The translations under genes and the position numbers were made by a program. This document shows, in pieces, positions 1,737-18,237 of a stretch of 24,377 bases of DNA (positions are counted from its first letter, which is position 1; every line of letters starts with the position of its first letter). Below the pieces are notes generated by a model. It worked only from the letters and a program-made list of their open reading frames with translations, was not told the DNA's origin and made no database searches. The stretch is from a virus, in IMG/VR virus record IMGVR_UViG_3300044678_000259, positions 1 through 24,377 of that record; one strand, given 5' to 3'.

Positions 1737-1873
1737 GATCCTCCTATGACGCTCTGTGGTGGGTTCATAAACTCTCTTGTCCCACAAGACATGCAATATA
1801 ATTCTAGATGAAGACGTGAACTATAAAGTCTGTCAAGAAACATTCTTCCCTTACATTTTTTACACTGTAACAT
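1682..1873 (-). CDS. Small zinc-ribbon protein
   Basis: A 63-residue protein starting at an ATG that overlaps the upstream stop (TAATG). Four cysteines are spaced as C4-x2-C7 and C27-x2-C30, the classic zinc-ribbon arrangement with two knuckles about 20 residues apart. Between them is a basic segment (MFLDRLYSSRLHLELY) that would form the ribbon strands. Such mini zinc ribbons are frequent in phages and usually bind nucleic acid or a protein partner, with no agreed function. Its 3' end overlaps the winged-helix gene by 55 bases, and the strong ribosome site for that gene lies inside this coding sequence, so the two are probably translated together. Little codon evidence is available because it is so short. 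Confidence 0.65.
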   Translation of the reverse strand: MLQCKKCKGRMFLDRLYSSRLHLELYCMSCGTREFMNPPQSVIGGSWLLEKEILRAKHTISPL

Positions 1874-2313
1874 TAATTAGGAATTCCAAGTGCAATTATA
1901 TTGATACCAATAGAAACATTGCCACTTGTTTTAAACTTTACAACTCCATCCACTTTTGACACTGTAACATTTTTTAACACTACAGAAATGTCAGATCCAG
2001 CAGAAGTACCATCAATATTTATTGGGGTAGCAGTAACAATTGGGGCATACTTAAATCCAGAATAACTTAAAGAAAATGGAAGTTCGTTTCCAGCACTAAC
2101 TGTACTATTATTTGCAACCTCTACATATCCACCAACCATTCTCATTTCAGATGATTTCACATCTTGTTTTCCAGAAGATATAGTATCTATTGTTAAATAT
2201 TTATTAAGTGAAGGGGAAACTTGAGTAGACAATGTATTTAAAGTATCTGCTATTTGATACATATAGGCAACATCAAGTGGTTGACCACGATTTGGGAGAG
2301 GTATTCTAGCCAT
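1873..2313 (-). CDS. Small tail-tip or fibre-associated virion protein
   Basis: A 146-residue protein. The N-terminus (MARIPLPNRGQPLDVAYMYQIADTLNTLS, interrupted) looks like a short helical adaptor of the sort that mounts fibre proteins. The rest is beta-rich with many Ser, Thr, Val and Gly residues and regular alternation, ending in SIGINIIALGIPN, which fits a trimeric or jelly-roll receptor-contacting tip. It is the last gene of the tail block and is preceded by its own promoter-like motif (2323-2331). There is no good ribosome site: only GGA near the start. I infer a minor tail protein or receptor-binding tip from position and composition. No diagnostic motif is visible. Confidence 0.62.
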   Translation of the reverse strand: MARIPLPNRGQPLDVAYMYQIADTLNTLSTQVSPSLNKYLTIDTISSGKQDVKSSEMRMVGGYVEVANNSTVSAGNELPFSLSYSGFKYAPIVTATPINIDGTSAGSDISVVLKNVTVSKVDGVVKFKTSGNVSIGINIIALGIPN

Positions 2314-8786: not shown

Positions 8787-9418
8787 TATACTTCTTCCAA
8801 AGATAAACTTATATCCCACAAATCATGTTTGCTATATCCTCTTTTATTTACGCTGTATGAAAAATCTGAGAATAATACTTCTATAACTTCTTGATACTCA
8901 CCAAGTCTATTGTATGTATTGTTTTGATCTTTTAATTTAATATAATTATCATAAGCAACAAATAGATAAAAAGAACCTTTGTGATTTAAGTACCAATCTA
9001 ATAACTCATTTCCTCCTGCTCCACCATCTACAGTATAGTTATCTAAACCAGCATCGTTTGCTCCAGTGCTGTTGTTAAAATTTGCAAGATTAGAAAAAGA
9101 TCTAGATGGTAAGTTTTGCCAACTTACAGAAAAAGTATTTTTATCTGCAATATAAAATGATCTCATTTTGCCATTAATGGTTCTTTCTTTTTGCTCAAGT
9201 CTATTATTTTTAATATCTATTGGACCACGATTATGATCTGACAAAATCAAAAATCTTTCATTTTGATTAGCATCTGGAACTGCGTTTATCTCAATTCCAT
9301 CTGGAACGTGAGTCATCCCATTTGCACCCTGTATGAGGGTTCCAGGGGTATCTGCAAACAAGAGTGCTTGGGGTCTACCATATTTCTTTCTACCAGCAAG
9401 GTAATTTAAAGTTGCCAT
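8786..9418 (-). CDS. Distal tail protein (Dit position)
   Basis: 210 residues, start overlapping the tape measure stop (TAATG at 9418). Gene order tape measure, this gene, giant hub is the standard siphovirus order in which this slot is the distal tail protein, the ring joining the tail tube to the tip. Recognisable segments are GKMRSFYIADKNTFSVSWQN with LPSRSF, then a C-terminal beta region (EVIEVLFSDFSYSVNKRG, LWDISLSLEEV) typical of minor tail proteins in actinophages. An internal Gly/Asp/Asn-rich loop (about 120-140) may be flexible. The slot assignment is mostly from context. The sequence itself supports a tail protein but not Dit specifically. Confidence 0.68.
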   Translation of the reverse strand: MATLNYLAGRKKYGRPQALLFADTPGTLIQGANGMTHVPDGIEINAVPDANQNERFLILSDHNRGPIDIKNNRLEQKERTINGKMRSFYIADKNTFSVSWQNLPSRSFSNLANFNNSTGANDAGLDNYTVDGGAGGNELLDWYLNHKGSFYLFVAYDNYIKLKDQNNTYNRLGEYQEVIEVLFSDFSYSVNKRGYSKHDLWDISLSLEEV

Positions 9419-12400
9419 TATATTCTATTCCCCTTAATTCTTTGAGAATCTATTTGCTTAATCTGCATCATTACCGTTCTAGCAATCTCGTTAGGGTTTG
9501 CATCAGACTTAACATTAACACTCAAGTTATAATTATACACTGAAGATGATTTAGGGTTTTCACCTTTATTGATTGCTCTTAAGTTATCTACCCCAAATTT
9601 ATCTACACCATATTTACTTACAATAAATTCACCAGGAGTTAGCATTGCTGGCACGGTATCTGTACCAACTGCAAAACCACCAAAAGCAAATTTTTTAATC
9701 ATTCCACCCATGTAATTCTTTTTAATTGGTTTTGATACTGGTGGAACATATTGTTTTTTAGGCATAGGGGTTATATATTTTTGAGGAATATAACTTGAAG
9801 TTCCACTACCATAAATATTTGACAAAGTTGCAGTAGTTAACTTAGATTGTTTACCACCCATCACACCTGGTATAGTCATTGATAATGGTGCGTATTTGTT
9901 TGATGACAAAAATGATGAACTTAATTTATTTGTTTTAGTTGATGTTGAACCTTTGTCTTTACCCGTTGGTTTTTTATCATCAGGTTTTTTATCATCTGGT
10001 GGAGGTGGTCCTGAGTCACCACTAAAACCACTAAATGTCATTGTTGACAATGTTCTCATGGTTTCAAGAATTTGATCATAAGTAGTCTTTATTGTTTCTA
10101 CTACACCAAGTGCTCCATCTAATGCATCTTTATATTTACCTGTTGCTACTTCAGCACCTTCAATTCTAAGTTTTTGCTCTTCCCATTCCGTCTTAGTCAT
10201 GTTAGCAACTTTAAATACTTCGGTTACTGCTTTAATTTCTTCATTAATAAGATCAACTTTAACTTGTGCCAATCTTGCCTGTTCTTGTAGTGGTGCAATA
10301 GTGTCTTGATCAATTCTATAATTTTGTTCTTTTAATAGTTTTACTTTTTCTTCTAGTTGGTCCCTAGTTAACCCATTAGCACTTAGTCTACCTATCTGTG
10401 CATCTCTAGATGCTTCCATTCCAGTTCTTTGTTGATCTATTGCATCTTGAGCATTTTGAGCACGAAGTTCTTGTGCTGCTCTTGCTGCAGCGTATATATC
10501 TCCTTGAGACAATGCCTCAGCAATTGATATTCTACTTTTTTCTTGTCTAGATATTACTTCATTAATTTTAGAAATTTTATCAAGTGCTGCAAATTGTTTA
10601 TCGTACTTTTCTGTAATTGCTTCTGCTTGATCACTAATACTCTTTAACCCATCTTCGTATCTAGCAATTTGATAATTGTTGGCATCTTGAATATTTCTTG
10701 CTAACTTAATTTGTTTATTGCTATTATCAATAATTAGTTGTTGTGCATCAAGTTCGCCTTTTCTTTTTTGTCTAATTAATTTTTCTTGTATTTCAAAAAG
10801 TTTCATAGCAGCATCAAACCCAGGATCAAACTGATTAGAATATTGACCAGTGCTTATGTCTCTATTAAATATTTCTTTAAGGGTTAGTTGCCTTTCTTTA
10901 ACTAATTTAAGAACATCTGCTCCTTTTGCTTGTGCCACTGCTGCTGCAAACGAACTATCTTTTATTGCATCATAGGCACCAGCAAGAGACATTCCAGACT
11001 TAGTTAATACATTAAATGCAATTGCTTGATTTTTACTATCTGCAACACTCTTTCTTTGATTTTCTACATAGTCACCAATTGCAATACTATTAAGAGACTG
11101 TTGCAAAACCTTTGTATCTTTAAACATTGATTTGTATTTATCATAGTCTTCTGCGGATAGTCCAGTGATGAAGTCAATAGTATTTTGTCCAGCACCTTCT
11201 CCTCTAAGTTTTTGTGCTAAGCCACCAAACCCTAGTGTTTCTTTAGCAAGTTTCTTTAAGGCGTTTCCTGAGTCGTTCCAGCCCATTGTCATTTCTTGTG
11301 TGGCTTTTCTTACATCTCTTAGTTTCTTTACTATGTCGTCTAATGGTGACCCTGTTGGTCCCCCGCCACTTTCTGACTCTTGTTCTGCATCTGCTCCCAC
11401 GGATGTGTCTGCTAACTTTTGTTCTGTTACTTTATATCCACCATAACCAATAAAATCTTCAATTGATTTTCCTATGTTACCTGCTTGCAATGACCAATTC
11501 TTATAAGCCTTAACAAATGTAGGATCTCCTTTAAGATTTAACATTGCTGTTGAGGCAGCCAAGAAGTTTCTTTTTTGATCTTCTGGCATCATCTTCCAAT
11601 CTTGACCCCTGGCTACAAGTTCGTCAAGTGCTTTCTGTCCAACTGTTTTTACCGCAAATTCTAATGTTAAATCTTTAGCACTAGTGTTATTTATTTTTTC
11701 TAACATTTCAGAAATTTTTGCAGAAGCACCAGAAGTTTGTGCATAATCTAACAATACTGGAACTTCTACTCCTTCACCAACCATAGCAAGTTGTCTAATA
11801 GCATTAAAAGCCTCTAACTCTTTTCTTGATTCTTCTGGAGTCTTTGTTTCAAAACTATATATAAACTCTAATGCCTTATCTGAACTAGCAAAATTATCTG
11901 CTAAATCATAAATTAAGTTTGCATCTTTGCCACCAACTTTTGGCATAATGCTTAAAATCTTATCTATGTCTTTTCCATCTGTAAATTTAGTTAAAATATT
12001 GGCTACTGTTTCTGGATTTAAATCTTGAGTAGCCATACCCAATTCTATATTTAATTTTGTTGCTTCGCTTACCTTTGCTTTATTTAATTTTGAACCTGTT
12101 TCAGCAGCAAGTGCTGATAATAAAGGACTGTCCATATAAACTTGTTTAATTGATTCTTGTGCAGCAGTCCTCATTGCTTTAATAGTTGAAGGATCTGCAC
12201 CCTCTAATCTATTTTGTATAACATCATAATTTTGTCTGCTTTCATTTAATAATGCTGCTTTCTTTTCTTCTCTTTCTAATATTAATTTATTAACTTCATT
12301 AAGATCTCCAGCAATTTTTGCAGCCTCTATTTTTTTGCTATATTCTACCTCTGTTACATCCAACATTTGTTGTTGTGTTTCTAACAAAACTTTCATTCTT

Positions 12401-15400
12401 GCAAAAACAGCAGCACCACTTTCATTAGAAGATTCTGGCCTATATCCTCTTGCCCTTGCTATTTTTTCTTGTGCACTCATTGAATTATAATCAACCAATG
12501 TGGAATTACTTGCACTAATAAGTCTATTTCTTTGTTCTTCAATAAGTTTAGTTTGAATTGTTATTCCATCTTTTAATACATTCTCTCCACCTGGACCCAA
12601 CATACTAATAAGTTTTGTGTTAACAGCAATAGAGAAATCATAATCCTGTATCGCATCTCCAATGTTTGCTGCTATACTACGTGCTTGTTTATAATCTAAT
12701 GCACCAGATACAACTGATCCAATAAGTTGATTAGACAGATCTGAAATAGCACCCTCTTTACCAGATTTAGAAATTGTTTTTTGAATAGACTCAACCCTTG
12801 CTTTTCCTTCATCTGATGCAACAAAACTTTCACCAAATGTTGTTTTCCCTGTTTTTATTGGGAAAGGAGATGCAAAGTTAGCACGTCTTCTGTTCATAAT
12901 TTCTGTTGCTGTTACAGTACCAGCAAATTTAGAAAATTCTTGCATAGGCTTTATACCTGTACCCATTGAATCAATAAGTTTTAAGGTAGCCTTCATTTCG
13001 TCTTTCTTTGCTTTATTTAATTTAAATATACCAAAAGCAAGTAAACCTATTAGTGATACAACTGCTGCAAGTGGTGCAGACATCATTCCAAATAACATTG
13101 ATACCATCATTATTGGTCCCATTAGTTGTTGTGCTGTATCTCCAACCTTACCGCCCATCATTGATGCTCCCATGACTGCTGTAGATGCTGCCATACCAAT
13201 CATTCCAGCACGTGGACCTTTTGCATCACCTGCAACCTTACCTTTGCCACCATTGCTACCAGCCATCATCTGGTTTTGTTTGGATAATTTTTCTTGTTGT
13301 CTTCTAATTGATTTATCTGTTGCTGTAATACCAGTTGATTTTCCATACAAAGCATTTGCTGATTGTGAAGTTGTTAAATTACTTACATAAGCATTTCCTG
13401 TTTTTCTTCCTGCCATTGCTGCGTCGTCAACAGATTCATTTAATCCTATTAGATAACCTTTTCCACTTTGAGTTCCAGCAATTTGTGGTTCTTTTGCTGG
13501 TGAATTAATTTTTAATACTTTTTTTAAACCTTCAACATAACCTTGTTTTCCAGCAATTCCAATTTTTTCAGCATACTGCATACTTTTTCTTTGAAGGTCT
13601 TGTAGTGCTTCTCGCAATAAATTACTTGGTAGACTCATTGCACCACCTTTAAGTGGAAGTATTGATCCAGGTAACGATCTATCTTGTGCAGTAACATGTG
13701 CTCTTGTTAATGATTTGGGGTCTAAATCTTCAAGAGGATTCCTTTCTGTTAATGTTTTAATTTTTGTATCAAATGACCTAGCACTTCCAAAAAGTCTTTT
13801 ATACCAAGTAGATCTCACTACTTTTCCAGATTCTGGATTTATCGTTGCTGCAGGAACCCTAAAATTACCACCTTTTAAAATATCTTCATCTGTTGGATAA
13901 AATGTTTTTTGTAATCCAGTTGCAGCACTTGCTGTTTTTCCACCTACTGCCTGCATTTGTGCAAGAATTGGATCAATCTTAACTCTGGCCTTTTCAAAAG
14001 CCTGACTAATATGTGTTGTATCTTTTGCAGACTCCTTTAATGCATCAGCAATTTGTTGTGTATATGGAACTAGTTCTGTTTGCAAATCTGCTACTAGTTT
14101 AGGAGATAATCTAAAACTACCTTCTATCGAGCCTGCAGCAATTGCAGTATTTCTAATTGATTGTTCAAATGCTTTTGTGTCTACAAATGATCTACTCATT
14201 CCATATCCACCAGAAGTATTTCCTGGTGCCATCAATGTGTAAGGGGCAAGTGCTCTAGACTGACCACCTTCTAAACGTGGAGTTTTTCCTTCTGCAAACC
14301 CTGGTATGTTATCAGCAATCATTCCGCTAATTAGTGGTGCGTATTTTTTAGCCATTGGTGCAGGAATTACTGCTTCTTTTGGTGAAAGCATTGCTGGAAC
14401 TTTATCTCCAGTACCACTTCCTGGAACACTGACTACACCTTTTGCATAACCCTTTGGCTGTTGAGCAGTACCACCTTTACCTCTAACAGCACCCAAACCA
14501 AACATGCTTTGTGTTGCTATTGCTTGTTGATATGCTAATGATAGATTTCTAACTGCCGCTGTTTCAGATGTAAACCTTTGTGTTAATTTCATGTGTGCTT
14601 GATCTAATGATGCAGCAACTCCTGCAGCCCTTAATTGTTCTTGTGTTAAATAACTAGTTTGTTCACCTAAAATTTGAGTAGAACTTCCAGTTTTATTGAA
14701 TAATGATTTTACTGCAGTAAAGCCTTTGATTATATTTGCAATACCATTAGCCAACAAACCAAATGACATTAATGCTAATGGACCTATACCTGCTAACACT
14801 GCTGTTAATAAGACCATTACTCTTTTTGTACCGTCTCCAAAATTTTCAAAATTTGCAAAAACATTACCAAAAAATTTAACAATTGGAGTTAAAGCCTTTA
14901 AAAATTCTGCACCAACAGGAGCAATTGCTGTTTTAAGATCTTGGACTTCTTTCTTAAATTTGTATAAAGGAGAATCCTCTACCTTTTTTAATTCTCTTTC
15001 AGATAAAACAGCCAACTCTTCTACAGTTGCTTGTGTCAATCCAGCAACAGTTTGAGCCTGACTACCCTCTTTAATAACATTTTGAAACAATGTAGAAATA
15101 CGAGCAAACTGAAACTTACCAAACAACTGTTCAATTGCTCTAGCACGATTTAATGGATCTAGTTGATCAAATGCTTTAGCCATACCAATAACAAGATTTC
15201 TCACATCACCTTGGTTTGCTTCAACAATACCTTTAATATTTATACCCATTTTGCCAAGTGATTTTGCTGCTTTTTCAGTTGGATTAATCATAGATGCCAG
15301 ACCAGACTTAAGTGCGTTAGCACCTTCTCCAGCCTGAATACCACCTTCACGCATTGCAGTCATAAAGAATGCTAAGTCTTGAACATCTCCACCAAGTTGT

Positions 15401-16446
15401 TTAATTACTGGTGCTGCTTTAGGAATTGCAGTTGTTAAATCATCAATGTTTAAAATTGTTTGGTTTTCCACTGCGTTTAAGAAGTTAATATCTTCTGACA
15501 ACGCCCTAGTTTCTTTTCCAAATGCAGATGTTAAAGAAATAATAGTATCAAGAGATTTTTGCTGATCAATTCCACCAAGTACGGCTAATTTATTTGCTTG
15601 CTTTACTTGCTCTAATAAGTCTGTTCCCATTTTGCCTGTTGCTGCAACATCTGCAGCCATCTTCATAGTATCTGCTACTGCTACCCCATATTTAGTAAAC
15701 TCATTAGCAAGTGCTTGAACATCTTTTAATGCTTTTGCTGTTTCTGTATTTGTTGTAAAAAGATCACCATAAACACGTTTAAATCTAATTGCCTGTTCTT
15801 CTAAATCCATAAATATTTTTGATGCAATTGTGCCAAAAGATACTAATGGAATTGTAAAACCAACCATAAGTTGACGACCAGCCCACTGTGTATTCTTACC
15901 AAAGTTTAATAGATTGGTAGAACCCTGTCTTAATAATTGATTAAGCAATGCTTGGCGTTGAGCAGCCATTGCTACCTTAGTACCATAATCGTTCATGTCC
16001 AAAGTTAATGGACGAACTGACATTGCTTTAAGAGCACCACTTGCATCTCTACCCATTTTAATATATTGGGTTTGTAATGTTTTTACATTTTCTCTTGCAA
16101 CTTTATTGATAGTATCAAATTCAGATTTAAATAATTTTCCAAAAGTTCTTGTAGAAGCACCAGCATACCTAAAATACTCTCTCATTGAGAGTTGATTTTT
16201 TTCTAGTGCTGTATTAAATGCGTCAGTTGTTGTTCTGATCTTTTTCATTTCGGCATAGAATTTGCCGCCAGCGTTTATTTGATTTGCTAGGTTTTGAGAA
16301 AGGTTATTAGATACTGCAACACCTGCAGCACCTGTTTTTGCCATTGAGGTGTGAAAGGCTGATATCTGGCGTTGTAACGCTTTTAATTGCGTTAACGCTT
16401 CACCAGTGTCAATACCAATTTTTATATTGGACTCTACATCAGCCAT
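9418..16446 (-). CDS. Tape measure protein, TP901-like core
   Basis: 2342 residues, start at the ATG at 16446 with AGAGGT 8 bases upstream. It sets tail length and in the family is ejected through the tube at infection. Order: N-terminal helical segment (1-180); TP901-type core (about 190-470, including TNTETAKALKDV, KMAADVAATGKMG and AMREGGIQAGEGANALKSGL); hydrophobic stretches at about 543-575 and 1080-1143 that could insert in a membrane; long charged coiled coil (about 1880-2130); Pro/Lys linker (about 2143-2175); and a C-terminal tail resembling other actinophage tape measures (NVKSDANPNEIARTV). A VPAML-type motif occurs twice (678-694 and 2261-2276), and a KINSPAKE segment near 980 is another common tape-measure module. 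At about 1.5 angstrom per residue the tail would be near 350 nm. Confidence 0.95.
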   Translation of the reverse strand: MADVESNIKIGIDTGEALTQLKALQRQISAFHTSMAKTGAAGVAVSNNLSQNLANQINAGGKFYAEMKKIRTTTDAFNTALEKNQLSMREYFRYAGASTRTFGKLFKSEFDTINKVARENVKTLQTQYIKMGRDASGALKAMSVRPLTLDMNDYGTKVAMAAQRQALLNQLLRQGSTNLLNFGKNTQWAGRQLMVGFTIPLVSFGTIASKIFMDLEEQAIRFKRVYGDLFTTNTETAKALKDVQALANEFTKYGVAVADTMKMAADVAATGKMGTDLLEQVKQANKLAVLGGIDQQKSLDTIISLTSAFGKETRALSEDINFLNAVENQTILNIDDLTTAIPKAAPVIKQLGGDVQDLAFFMTAMREGGIQAGEGANALKSGLASMINPTEKAAKSLGKMGINIKGIVEANQGDVRNLVIGMAKAFDQLDPLNRARAIEQLFGKFQFARISTLFQNVIKEGSQAQTVAGLTQATVEELAVLSERELKKVEDSPLYKFKKEVQDLKTAIAPVGAEFLKALTPIVKFFGNVFANFENFGDGTKRVMVLLTAVLAGIGPLALMSFGLLANGIANIIKGFTAVKSLFNKTGSSTQILGEQTSYLTQEQLRAAGVAASLDQAHMKLTQRFTSETAAVRNLSLAYQQAIATQSMFGLGAVRGKGGTAQQPKGYAKGVVSVPGSGTGDKVPAMLSPKEAVIPAPMAKKYAPLISGMIADNIPGFAEGKTPRLEGGQSRALAPYTLMAPGNTSGGYGMSRSFVDTKAFEQSIRNTAIAAGSIEGSFRLSPKLVADLQTELVPYTQQIADALKESAKDTTHISQAFEKARVKIDPILAQMQAVGGKTASAATGLQKTFYPTDEDILKGGNFRVPAATINPESGKVVRSTWYKRLFGSARSFDTKIKTLTERNPLEDLDPKSLTRAHVTAQDRSLPGSILPLKGGAMSLPSNLLREALQDLQRKSMQYAEKIGIAGKQGYVEGLKKVLKINSPAKEPQIAGTQSGKGYLIGLNESVDDAAMAGRKTGNAYVSNLTTSQSANALYGKSTGITATDKSIRRQQEKLSKQNQMMAGSNGGKGKVAGDAKGPRAGMIGMAASTAVMGASMMGGKVGDTAQQLMGPIMMVSMLFGMMSAPLAAVVSLIGLLAFGIFKLNKAKKDEMKATLKLIDSMGTGIKPMQEFSKFAGTVTATEIMNRRRANFASPFPIKTGKTTFGESFVASDEGKARVESIQKTISKSGKEGAISDLSNQLIGSVVSGALDYKQARSIAANIGDAIQDYDFSIAVNTKLISMLGPGGENVLKDGITIQTKLIEEQRNRLISASNSTLVDYNSMSAQEKIARARGYRPESSNESGAAVFARMKVLLETQQQMLDVTEVEYSKKIEAAKIAGDLNEVNKLILEREEKKAALLNESRQNYDVIQNRLEGADPSTIKAMRTAAQESIKQVYMDSPLLSALAAETGSKLNKAKVSEATKLNIELGMATQDLNPETVANILTKFTDGKDIDKILSIMPKVGGKDANLIYDLADNFASSDKALEFIYSFETKTPEESRKELEAFNAIRQLAMVGEGVEVPVLLDYAQTSGASAKISEMLEKINNTSAKDLTLEFAVKTVGQKALDELVARGQDWKMMPEDQKRNFLAASTAMLNLKGDPTFVKAYKNWSLQAGNIGKSIEDFIGYGGYKVTEQKLADTSVGADAEQESESGGGPTGSPLDDIVKKLRDVRKATQEMTMGWNDSGNALKKLAKETLGFGGLAQKLRGEGAGQNTIDFITGLSAEDYDKYKSMFKDTKVLQQSLNSIAIGDYVENQRKSVADSKNQAIAFNVLTKSGMSLAGAYDAIKDSSFAAAVAQAKGADVLKLVKERQLTLKEIFNRDISTGQYSNQFDPGFDAAMKLFEIQEKLIRQKRKGELDAQQLIIDNSNKQIKLARNIQDANNYQIARYEDGLKSISDQAEAITEKYDKQFAALDKISKINEVISRQEKSRISIAEALSQGDIYAAARAAQELRAQNAQDAIDQQRTGMEASRDAQIGRLSANGLTRDQLEEKVKLLKEQNYRIDQDTIAPLQEQARLAQVKVDLINEEIKAVTEVFKVANMTKTEWEEQKLRIEGAEVATGKYKDALDGALGVVETIKTTYDQILETMRTLSTMTFSGFSGDSGPPPPDDKKPDDKKPTGKDKGSTSTKTNKLSSSFLSSNKYAPLSMTIPGVMGGKQSKLTTATLSNIYGSGTSSYIPQKYITPMPKKQYVPPVSKPIKKNYMGGMIKKFAFGGFAVGTDTVPAMLTPGEFIVSKYGVDKFGVDNLRAINKGENPKSSSVYNYNLSVNVKSDANPNEIARTVMMQIKQIDSQRIKGNRI
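9619..9666 (-). repeat. Second copy of a VPAML-type motif in the tape measure
   Basis: Codes GTDTVPAMLTPGEFIV (residues 2261-2276) near the C-terminus. It is a relative of the segment at 14365-14415. It is a protein-level repeat, not a DNA repeat. Confidence 0.75.
9968..9997 (-). repeat. Two tandem 15-base units in the tape measure linker
   Basis: The plus strand reads ggttttttatcatca then ggttttttatcatct. It codes the repeated acidic/basic unit PDDKK inside the Pro/Lys-rich linker. Such short tandem units can expand or shrink by slippage and change linker length. Confidence 0.8.
14365..14415 (-). repeat. First copy of a VPAML-type motif in the tape measure
   Basis: Codes GTGDKVPAMLSPKEAVI (residues 678-694), similar to the C-terminal copy at 9619-9666. 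In other tape measures this motif is generally near the C-terminus, so an internal copy suggests a fused or duplicated module. Confidence 0.75.
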
Positions 16447-16471: not shown

Positions 16472-16792
16472 TTATGGTAGATTATTAAGAAGTGCTGCAT
16501 CTGCTAATTTAACTCCAGATGCTTCTTCTATAATCTGATATACCGTTGGAAGATCCATATTTTCTTCTAACGCTGCTAAGTCTTCTGCAAGTTCTGGTTT
16601 GTATTGTTTCATTGCAATTTGAATACATTCCATTAATATGTTCATTGATTTTTCGTTATCTTCTGCGACCGCTGCTACACCTTCGAATTTCTTCATGAAA
16701 GGACGTAGGAGAGAAATTTTCAGTGGTCTTACTTTGATTTTTGTGCCGTCAATAAGCGTAACTGTTTTTTCTTCGTTAACAGTAGTTGCCAT
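16472..16792 (-). CDS. Tail assembly chaperone, short paralog (G-like)
   Basis: 106 residues with a strong ribosome site (AAGGAGG, 4 bases before the ATG). It aligns along its whole length with residues 1-95 of the upstream 227-residue gene: identical MAT, EE, LIDGT, V, P, KI, LR, then matching IAM, P, EEN/EDN, D, TVY and E-G-K positions, about one third identical with one single-residue gap. It sits directly before the tape measure, where tail chaperones always lie. In this family the protein coats the tape measure and brings tail tube subunits to it. Only 25 bases separate its stop from the tape measure start, so no frameshifted extension is possible. I infer that it plays the part of lambda gpG. 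Confidence 0.85.
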   Translation of the reverse strand: MATTVNEEKTVTLIDGTKIKVRPLKISLLRPFMKKFEGVAAVAEDNEKSMNILMECIQIAMKQYKPELAEDLAALEENMDLPTVYQIIEEASGVKLADAALLNNLP

Positions 16793-16799
16793 TTTTCCT

Positions 16800-16817
16800 C
16801 CTTATAAGGTTAACCTT
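16800..16817. promoter_or_regulatory. Overlapping palindromes ahead of the short chaperone gene
   Basis: CCTTATAAGG (16800-16809) and AAGGTTAACCTT (16806-16817) are perfect palindromes sharing four bases. They lie between the -10-like box and the start codon and overlap the ribosome site. They could be a protein operator, or two competing small RNA hairpins, one of which would cover the AAGG of the ribosome site. Confidence 0.4.
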
Positions 16818-16818
16818 A

Positions 16819-16827
16819 ATTATATCA
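16819..16827 (-). promoter_or_regulatory. Extended -10 promoter-like element (TGATATAAT)
   Basis: An exact TGnTATAAT on the minus strand in the 50-base gap between the two chaperone genes. Transcription from about 16812 would give a leader of roughly 20 bases containing the strong ribosome site of the short paralog. Confidence 0.55.
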
Positions 16828-16842
16828 CAGAGGACCTATATT

Positions 16843-17526
16843 TTAACCAACAACCTCTTCATACCCCAAACCATTCCCAATACCAAACCCTGCTTTCTGT
16901 GCTCTTGCTCCACGAAGGTTTGTTATGTCATTGGCGTCTTTTCCTTTGTATAATACTCTTTTTTTCATATCTTCCCAAGCATTATCATTTTTATCTTTAT
17001 CAAGATCTACTCCTTGCATTGCCGCCGCAAATTTTTTATCACCATAATCTAATTCTCTTTTTACTTCTAATAAAGATATTAATTCTGGCATTGATATAGA
17101 GTTTTCTAAATCGTCAAAGTTCTTCCAAGCACCTATTAAAAAAGCCTCAGACTCTAACTTTACAAGATCTAGGTCTTGCCAGTTTGATCCATCGCTTTGA
17201 GACTTTGCTTGATTCTCAACAGTCTCTTCTTGATCGATATTTATCTTTATTCCAGCACAATATTCCAAAACCTTATATACTGTTTTTATATCTAAGTTAT
17301 CTTCTATCAGTTCTACTGAATCAGAAATAGATGGATAAAACTCTTGCATTGCAATTCTAACAGACTCAACCATCATCTCTATGGCTTCATCTTCTGTGCT
17401 ATCTTTATTTATTTTATTAAAACTGTCTAATATACCTCTTAGGTATTTTATTTTTGATGGGCCAACTGTTATTTCTGTACCGTCGATTAATTCGATAACA
17501 TTTTCTTCATAAACTTTTGTGGCCAT
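16843..17526 (-). CDS. Tail assembly chaperone, long paralog (GT-like, single frame)
   Basis: 227 residues. The first 95 match the following 106-residue gene (MAT, LIDGT, KI, LR, IAM, TVY shared), which marks it as a tail chaperone. The extra part, about 115-190 (WQDLDLVKLESEAFLIGAW, SMPELISLLEVKRELDYGDKKFAAAMQG), is an alpha-helical region like the T part of lambda gpGT and related actinophage chaperones, which binds tail tube protein. In most siphophages the G to GT extension needs a -1 frameshift. Here it is one continuous frame with no slippery run seen near the junction. The ATG at 17526 sits 7 bases after a TATAAT with no ribosome site, so translation is probably leaderless. The C-terminus is Gly-rich (GFGIGNGLGYEEVVG). 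Confidence 0.82.
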   Translation of the reverse strand: MATKVYEENVIELIDGTEITVGPSKIKYLRGILDSFNKINKDSTEDEAIEMMVESVRIAMQEFYPSISDSVELIEDNLDIKTVYKVLEYCAGIKINIDQEETVENQAKSQSDGSNWQDLDLVKLESEAFLIGAWKNFDDLENSISMPELISLLEVKRELDYGDKKFAAAMQGVDLDKDKNDNAWEDMKKRVLYKGKDANDITNLRGARAQKAGFGIGNGLGYEEVVG

Positions 17527-17532
17527 TAAACC

Positions 17533-17541
17533 ATTATATCA
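17533..17541 (-). promoter_or_regulatory. Extended -10 element placed for a leaderless transcript (TGATATAAT)
   Basis: An exact TGnTATAAT on the minus strand. The last T of TATAAT (17533) is 6 bases from the A of the start codon (17526), so the expected transcription start is that A. No ribosome site lies upstream. This geometry is well known in actinobacterial leaderless genes. It lies just beyond the terminator at 17550-17573. Confidence 0.62.
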
Positions 17542-17573
17542 AATAGAAAAGCCCACCGTTTTATGGGTGGGCT
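17542..17573 (-). terminator. Rho-independent terminator after the major tail protein
   Basis: On the minus strand an 8-pair GC-rich stem, AGCCCACC with GGTGGGCT (17573-17566 and 17557-17550), encloses an 8-base loop and is followed at once by TTTCTATTT. It begins 20 bases after the stop of the major tail protein gene. Confidence 0.9.
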
Positions 17574-17592: not shown

Positions 17593-18237
17593 CTAAGCAA
17601 TTGTACGATCAACAATCTTACCATACATACCGTCATCTAACGGTAACATACGGAAAGTTACGTCAAACATAGATGCTGCATCACGTTTTGCTGATGCTAC
17701 TACGTTTTCGATTGACAAAGCACGGTATCCGATATAGATACGTTCCTTATCGATTGATGGGTCACCAGTTCCTGGACCAACGGCTACTATACCACGTTCT
17801 AGAGGAACGTCGCCTAATTCACCTGAGTTGATGTCGAAACTTTGGCTTCCTGTACCAATACCTGTTGCGGTTGATAATTCATCTAAATCATTTACGTTTG
17901 CTGCTACTGCCACTAGAAGGTTTTCTAGTGTTGCTTCTGCAAATGATGTTGCCAAAGATACTTGCATGCCGTCTTTGAAAAGACGAGCAACGTCAAGAAC
18001 TTGATCAACTTGAACTTCACCGAAAGATGGTTGGAATGTAAGTTCGATACCATTGCTGGTATAACCTACGTTTGTAAAGTCAACGTCATCAGCCAAAGTA
18101 TCTTTGTATGATGTTGCTGCTTCAAATGCTGGTAGTGGTCCACTTCCAATTGCGTTGGCTAGAGCACCGTTATTATATGTAAACAATGCGGCTGCACCAA
18201 CGATAATGTTGTTGGACGATCCACGAGAATATGCCAT
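17593..18237 (-). CDS. Major tail tube protein
   Basis: 214 residues, start at an ATG with GAGGT 7 bases upstream. It is the expected tail tube subunit: it lies between the tail terminator and the tail chaperones, has the right length, and its pattern fits (GIELTFQPSFGEVQVDQVLDVARLF split by short loops, and a C-terminal SMFDVTFRMLPLDDGMYGKI). In tail tube proteins this beta-sandwich stacks as hexameric rings around the tape measure. The gene is in its own cassette: an 85-base leader with promoter-like boxes ahead and a strong terminator behind. Its codons are visibly richer in G and C than its neighbours' (for instance CGT for arginine), fitting a protein made in hundreds of copies per virion. 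Confidence 0.9.
   Translation of the reverse strand: MAYSRGSSNNIIVGAAALFTYNNGALANAIGSGPLPAFEAATSYKDTLADDVDFTNVGYTSNGIELTFQPSFGEVQVDQVLDVARLFKDGMQVSLATSFAEATLENLLVAVAANVNDLDELSTATGIGTGSQSFDINSGELGDVPLERGIVAVGPGTGDPSIDKERIYIGYRALSIENVVASAKRDAASMFDVTFRMLPLDDGMYGKIVDRTIA

Follow-up and report, generated by a model that had tools for sequence, protein, structure and literature searches.

Tail assembly chaperones related to the G and GT proteins of the Stanwilliamsviridae are probably produced, in the virus studied here, without the usual programmed frameshift, which gene duplication and retuned expression would have replaced. In the 24,377 nucleotides that were analysed (hereafter the window, positions 1 to 24,377 of the IMG/VR virus record IMGVR_UViG_3300044678_000259), a long gene carries a G domain and a T domain in one frame, and is followed by a short gene that carries a G domain only. 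The homology of the two genes, the fusion, the loss of the slip site, the grouping of such loci in a single clade and the conserved start signals form the basis of this reading, and these can be read from the sequences themselves.

Gene order and domains of the two chaperone genes

The genes of the region are located on the minus strand in the order tail tube, long gene, short gene and tape measure. The gene for the major tail (tube) protein (17593..18237, 214 aa) lies directly upstream of the long gene; its product matches phrog_2175 (2.1e-28) and, at 0.0088, the major tail protein family phrog_885, and the gene at this position in a Streptomyces phage is annotated as major tail protein. The long gene (16843..17526, 227 aa) and the short gene (16472..16792, 106 aa) had both been given their correct coordinates in the initial annotation, as had the distance of 25 nt between the stop of the short gene and the start of the tape measure gene (9418..16446, minus strand, 2342 aa). 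The tape measure protein itself contains two short motifs that resemble each other (around DKVPAMLSPKEAVIP and DTVPAMLTPGEFIV); one is internal and the other lies near the C-terminus.

The N-domains of the two proteins had been estimated by eye to be about one third identical with one gap, which agrees with BLASTP, where 34 of 96 residues (35%) are identical across a single gap (E 2e-22 in this single comparison). Searching the window with the long protein recovers the short one at E 4.3e-18. Over the N-domain both proteins match the same PHROG family, phrog_10504 (3.9e-19 for the short and 1.3e-19 for the long protein), so that the homology supposed between them proves to be strong. In the long gene the G-like N-domain (17209..17526, minus strand) is followed by a T-like C-domain (16867..17181, minus strand), whose profile match of E 5e-43 has to be read with the window being one of the three seeds of that profile; the C-terminal part of the long protein also matches phrog_10474 (4.4e-17). 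G and T profiles both fall on a single open frame, as had been described. As this C-terminal extension is homologous to the open reading frame that relatives carry in the -1 frame as T, the long gene is, by its sequence, an in-frame GT and the short gene a second G. In every part that could be checked, the earlier description of the locus turned out to be accurate.

Weak fold matches, the synteny and the annotation of homologues suggest that the long and short proteins act as chaperones. For the short protein, modelled with AlphaFold (mean pLDDT 74), the best BFVD row carries the name tail assembly chaperone (E 3.4e-7, 28% identical); it may belong to the same family and would then not be independent evidence. 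The first PDB row found by Foldseek is the HK97 tail assembly chaperone 2ob9 (gp13), at the weak values of E 0.91 and TM 0.46, and in a second comparison 2ob9 is second by Z (Z 4.3, rmsd 5.2, 85 aligned), beside unrelated proteins at 3.8-4.7. The whole long model (mean pLDDT 64) gave nothing useful against the PDB by Foldseek, profile searches against solved structures each yielded a single row (E 0.28 and 0.93), in both cases an unrelated enzyme, and NCBIfam gave scattered weak matches only. Neither of the two window chaperones has a Pfam match above the cut-off. Among 50 G rows, Pfam gave weak matches to tail families, namely GP24_25 in three (best E 0.017), T4_baseplate in one (0.0022) and Phage_TAC_19 in one (0.082), and also to unrelated families, such as Rubis-subs-bind in 13. 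All 50 of these rows match phrog_10504; five match phrog_1932, a tail assembly chaperone family (best E 0.0015), and one each phrog_344 and phrog_330, matches that are no more than suggestive.

Two layouts among the relatives and their start signals

A tblastn search of annotated phages matched 130 records, 127 from Streptomyces and three from Rhodococcus. In EGole and Coruscant, the stretch from the major tail protein gene to the tape measure gene encodes G and, after it, T in the -1 frame. The annotations of this locus vary: Francob, Sham, NiceHouse and Yaboi have a joined tail assembly chaperone, and other relatives have a chaperone gene and behind it either another chaperone or a hypothetical protein. 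Seven scans of viral contigs, 12 phage records (13 regions), one genome scan and the window together yielded 531 sequences, and after identical DNA stretches were counted once, 352 distinct loci could be classified with G and T profiles; L001 and L002, from the window's own record, were dropped throughout before counting. The counts that follow are among the matches listed by the scans and are therefore not estimates of prevalence. GT in one frame followed by G is the layout of 233 of the 352 loci, the window included (the duplicated type), and in 109 (the frameshift type) only one G was found, with T in its -1 frame; the other 10 comprise loci cut by a sequence end, one match to T only (L530) and one damaged copy (L086). 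The reversed order that had been noted in the window, GT before G, is found with two paralogous genes in all 233 classified loci of the duplicated type, and true intermediates between the layouts were not seen among the 352 loci. Of the 218 duplicated loci with a complete short gene, 212 have a next long open frame that could be found, 13-33 nt after the short stop.

Rough clustering of the T-domains at 90% identity gives 96 clusters from 216 duplicated loci and 64 from 106 frameshift loci. The two types cannot be told apart by their G+C content, with a median of 0.38 for duplicated loci (n = 216) and 0.39 for environmental frameshift loci (n = 94); for cultured frameshift phages it is 0.48 (n = 12). 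The scan of GTDB genomes gave two loci, the weak T-only match L530 and the frameshift-type L529, and a plasmid search with the long protein gave no locus. L529 (CAINGU010000031.1) has its G/T genes in a metagenome-assembled genome labelled as an uncultured cyanobacterium, and its contig of 110 kb may be a phage that was binned with this genome. In L086 (positions 1-760) the long copy is out of frame and has one base fewer than L085, near the contig end, which may be either an assembly error or a broken copy.

The initial annotation had described very different start signals for the two genes, and this contrast proves to be conserved throughout the clade. In the window the long gene has a TG-extended TATAAT box of leaderless type (17533..17538, minus strand) that ends 6 nt before the ATG, and no Shine-Dalgarno sequence, whereas the short gene has a TG-extended TATAAT (16819..16824, minus strand) 26 nt before its ATG and the Shine-Dalgarno sequence AAGGAGG (16797..16803, minus strand; duplex energy -12.2). 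A -10 hexamer with at least five of six matches is found 5-8 nt before the long start in 146 of 177 distinct upstream regions (mean 4.4 and maximum 9 after shuffling), and at none of the short genes or frameshift-type single genes; among the 20 window genes checked, the long gene is the only one with a 5/6 match at 6-nt spacing. Matches resembling a Shine-Dalgarno site are present, counting distinct upstream regions, in none of 177 long genes, in all 182 short genes and in 91 of 93 frameshift-type single genes. At 20-40 nt, all 182 distinct short upstream regions have a -10 box (4/6 or better), and the frameshift-type single genes commonly have theirs at 23-30 nt, like the short genes. The TG extension of a -10 box (4/6 or better) is common to all three groups (166 of 177 long, 180 of 182 short and 88 of 93 single genes). 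With a -10 box about 6 nt before the ATG and no Shine-Dalgarno-like site, the mRNA of the long gene looks leaderless. Elsewhere in the window, a gene at 1873-2313 (minus strand) has TATAAT 9 nt from its ATG and a weak Shine-Dalgarno sequence, and is possibly a second leaderless gene.

Between the tube gene and the long gene, the window has a predicted intrinsic terminator hairpin (17550..17573, minus strand) with an 8-pair stem and a T run; for the whole intergenic region of 66 nt, the folding energy is -19.5 kcal/mol (z -3.68). A terminator-like hairpin is present within 80 nt upstream of the long gene in all 176 distinct regions, and in 54 of the 176 when each is shuffled once by mononucleotides. 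Such hairpins precede 50 of 91 frameshift-type single genes (12 after shuffling) and lie between the long and short genes in 30 of 175 cases (9 after shuffling), where read-through would be limited.

For dN/dS, 400 pairs from 216 loci were drawn by a T-domain dS of 0.1-0.9, of which 357 were usable for long G, 400 for T and 343 for short G. The medians are 0.079, 0.082 and 0.095 in this order, with 90th percentiles of 0.258, 0.228 and 0.171, values that speak for purifying selection on all three domains. Decay of the long copy was considered and rejected on the median of its G domain, and neither copy looks to be decaying.

The G domain of the long gene diverges faster than that of the short gene, with a median identity between random pairs of 0.55 against 0.69 (0.72 for T), and within one genome the two are only 29-53% identical (median 41%, n = 216). 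Paralogues so deeply diverged, with the long G more variable than the short, could have taken different roles, for example the short protein as a tape measure chaperone and the long one as an adaptor that recruits the tube, so that no ratio of G to GT would be regulated. However, such roles are near to what the G and GT forms of lambda already do, several conserved positions are common to both copies and to the G of the frameshift type, and the contrast in signals is uniform throughout the clade; I consider a division of roles without a regulated ratio rather unlikely.

Probable origin by duplication and fate of the slippery site

In the tree of tube proteins, made from 88 of 120 tubes longer than 150 aa from the first 210 sequences, all 39 rows of the duplicated type form one clade (support 100/100) beside Streptomyces phages, with several frameshift lineages outside; its root is the midpoint on a long branch. 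The order in this tree agrees with the wide conservation of the G/GT frameshift reported in the available text of PMC5009743. The two trees of G domains were made from cluster representatives (95 of 198 rows in the first, 95 of 538 in the second); the first omits L086, L115 and L030 and has L039 on a long branch of 4.08, and the second leaves out L039 and all rows shorter than 85 aa. Both separate the single copies from the long and short copies together, at 100 (first tree) and 100/99 (second tree), and the short copies form one clade at 91 and 100/100, respectively. The first tree unites the long copies in a clade (support 93). The free search of the second does not, and 4% of its bootstrap trees have them together, in a bootstrap that had not settled; constraining them together, however, gave a tree 4.48 log units higher (p-AU 0.574). 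The switch from frameshift to duplication can be placed once on these trees, the simplest reading being a single duplication before the radiation of the clade, and frameshifting was most likely the ancestral state.

The low identity of the two G domains within a genome, together with the long branch that leads to the long and short pair (1.01 in the first G tree, 1.06 in the run of the constrained tree), could also mean that the short gene was acquired horizontally from another relative and did not arise by duplication within the lineage. Yet both G trees join long and short copies against the frameshift-type G at the support given above, and a complete locus with a lone G and no T was not found among the 352, which makes horizontal acquisition unlikely, and a duplication within the lineage is the reading that I follow below.

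At the overlap of G and T in the frameshift type (n = 109), the in-frame heptamer is CCCAAAC in 91 loci, CCCAAAT in 10 and GGGAAAA in one (NiceHouse), and is absent from seven; CCCAAAC/T thus accounts for 101 of the 109, the Streptomyces Stanwilliamsviridae being among the carriers. The seven without a heptamer are the Streptomyces phages L003, L004, L203, L204, L206, L207 and L208, which have C CCG GAA at the position of the slip site, possibly a non-canonical slip site. Ahead of the conserved motif, the T frame offers no start codon in 102 of 108 frameshift-type loci (one of the 109 was not scored), and none of the remaining six has a Shine-Dalgarno-like site, so that T is hardly a separate gene in this type.

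In the duplicated type this site is lost. The counts at the long gene cover 232 loci, as L064, which is among the 233, is truncated on its left side. At the junction of the long gene, one of the 232 has an in-frame CCCAAAN (L369, CCCAAAT); four more loci have this heptamer elsewhere in the long gene, and it is absent from the last 75 nt of all 218 short genes, of which 14 have TTTAAAC/T near the end. In the window, the junction of the long gene has no in-frame heptamer, and the codons of the slip site (D-P-N) align with D-A-A in the short gene. The +1 and -1 frames across the stop of the short gene in the window are shut within 11 nt, so that a T extension reached by frameshifting is impossible there, as had been stated, and the idea that the short gene retains a remnant frameshift was dismissed for the same reason. 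A conserved frameshift at the junction of the long gene was likewise rejected, with 202 of 232 loci having no in-frame X XXY YYZ, 29 having lineage-specific heptamers and one having CCCAAAT. As to a frameshift product from either gene, neither has retained a conserved slippery site, although in-frame heptamers that are not conserved do exist.

These heptamers bear on the possibility that a cryptic, truncating frameshift (as in dnaX) in the long gene remains the source of both proteins, with the short gene as an accessory. In the long gene of the window, codon 129 is the site of an in-frame T TTT TTA, from which a -1 shift would run for 9 aa before it ends, and codon 220 that of T TTG GGG; T TTT TTA/G is found in the T domain of 44 of the 228 long genes scored, the window included. 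In-frame heptamers recur at several positions of the long genes, most often at T position 49 (43 of 232), T position 14 (36) and G position 42 (35). A scan of codon bias over 85 columns in 101 representatives of the duplicated clade found synonymous codon use to be biased at residues 130-131 (KL 0.76 and 1.05 bits, versus a median of 0.09), within codons 128-131 of the window's long gene (17134-17145, minus strand); the use of Ser codons at residue 193 is biased as well (KL 1.40). Some members of the duplicated type might conceivably use an in-frame heptamer of the long gene. However, a slippery heptamer is lacking at the T-domain site in 184 of 228 long genes and at the junction in most, and the short gene has a strong and conserved Shine-Dalgarno sequence, adjoins the tape measure gene and carries the slower-evolving G domain, under purifying selection. 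A cryptic frameshift as the source of both proteins is hence very unlikely. That the layout is an artefact of assembly or annotation can be set aside almost entirely: all duplicated-type loci seen are from uncultured viral contigs, and L086 has a damaged copy near a contig end, but 233 distinct loci on many contigs are concordant, and the median dN/dS is 0.08-0.095 in all three domains.

Known systems and a proposed history

The locus of the window reads as a non-frameshifting branch that is homologous to the chaperones of Stanwilliamsviridae type (EGole, Coruscant, Sham, Circinus and others, with phrog_10504 and phrog_10474). It has in common with these the homologous G and T domains and a position preceded by the major tail protein gene and followed by that of the tape measure. 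In the Stanwilliamsviridae, however, T lies in the -1 frame of the only G, whereas the window has T in frame with one copy of G and a second gene for G. At the level of genes it also resembles gpG/gpGT of lambda and the analogues in HK97, TP901-1 and SPP1, where short and long chaperones with a common N-domain likewise precede the tape measure. In lambda, a G:GT molar ratio of 30:1 is reported to be crucial, with G binding the tape measure and T the tube subunit (available text of PMC5009743). The lambda type differs in that a programmed -1 frameshift makes both forms from one gene, whereas the window has separate genes with GT in one frame.

In 2022, Vladimirov et al. reportedly proposed gp26 and gp51 of T4 as separately encoded chaperones, so that the principle of separate genes for the short and long chaperone was already known. 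As in the window, two separate paralogous genes stand there in place of a frameshift; gp26 and gp51 are identical at 33 of 161 positions (20%, E 2e-6), and both match PF12322 over the whole model. They differ from the window, where the copies are in tandem on the same strand and have frameshift-type relatives, in that the genes of gp26 and gp51 lie back to back on opposite strands in a phage with a contractile tail. PF12322 gave no match up to E 1 with either window protein and matched one of 50 G relatives at E 0.0022; a profile comparison of the window family with gp51 gave a probability of 1.9%. In the literature searched, mostly other than subscription journals and available in part, no in-frame GT with a separate G paralogue was found in siphophage-like genomes. 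What is new here, as far as this literature goes, is that homologous genes of one lineage show both types, with frameshift and with duplication, and that the duplicated copies have lost the slip site and carry different start signals. According to the available text on PRFect, 342 of 3679 SEA-PHAGES genomes have two chaperone genes without a join, many of which were suggested to be incompletely annotated (PMC10885494), and Gordonia cluster DJ was reported, in the available text of PMC12859696, without an identified chaperone gene.

From these observations I infer a history, including the order of its steps, leaderless transcription and an expression ratio, in which the ancestor would have made both products from one gene, most ribosomes stopping at the end of G and a few reaching T by a -1 slip at CCCAAAC/T. 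A duplication of this gene would have followed in one lineage. The upstream copy would have become a permanent in-frame GT fusion and lost its Shine-Dalgarno sequence, its ATG now sitting where transcription should begin, with the terminator shielding GT from the transcript of the tail tube gene. The downstream copy would have retained a promoter of the ancestral type and a strong Shine-Dalgarno sequence, and lost T and the slippery codons, so as to make G only. As G lies downstream of the GT promoter and has a promoter of its own, it would be expected to be transcribed from both, by read-through and directly, which should favour G over GT, and the signals taken together should give an excess of G. 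Leaderless mRNAs can be well translated in actinobacteria, and a low output of GT is therefore not assured. As in lambda, G would coat the tape measure and T would recruit tube subunits in the finished system.

A permanent fusion of gpG to gpT in TP901-1, without separate G, was reported to give complete-looking but non-infectious particles (available text of PMC4493119). By analogy, a phage that fuses G to T probably needs a second source of G, which the short gene would supply.

The frameshift of G and GT is among the best conserved recoding events in phages. This clade apparently dispensed with it once, and related lineages still have CCCAAAC/T. It is fairly probable that a single event ended the widely conserved frameshift and moved the control of dosage from decoding to the strength of promoters and ribosome sites, with the minor product GT leaderless and the major product G strongly leadered, in a clade whose sisters keep the ancestral state. 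For annotators the locus is a caution, as a second gene before the tape measure may be a true paralogue of G and not the shifted half of a chaperone gene. Comparing the two types makes it possible to ask what the frameshift is for, be it a fixed ratio, co-translational assembly or economy of the genome, and whether leaderless translation can be a setting for low output.
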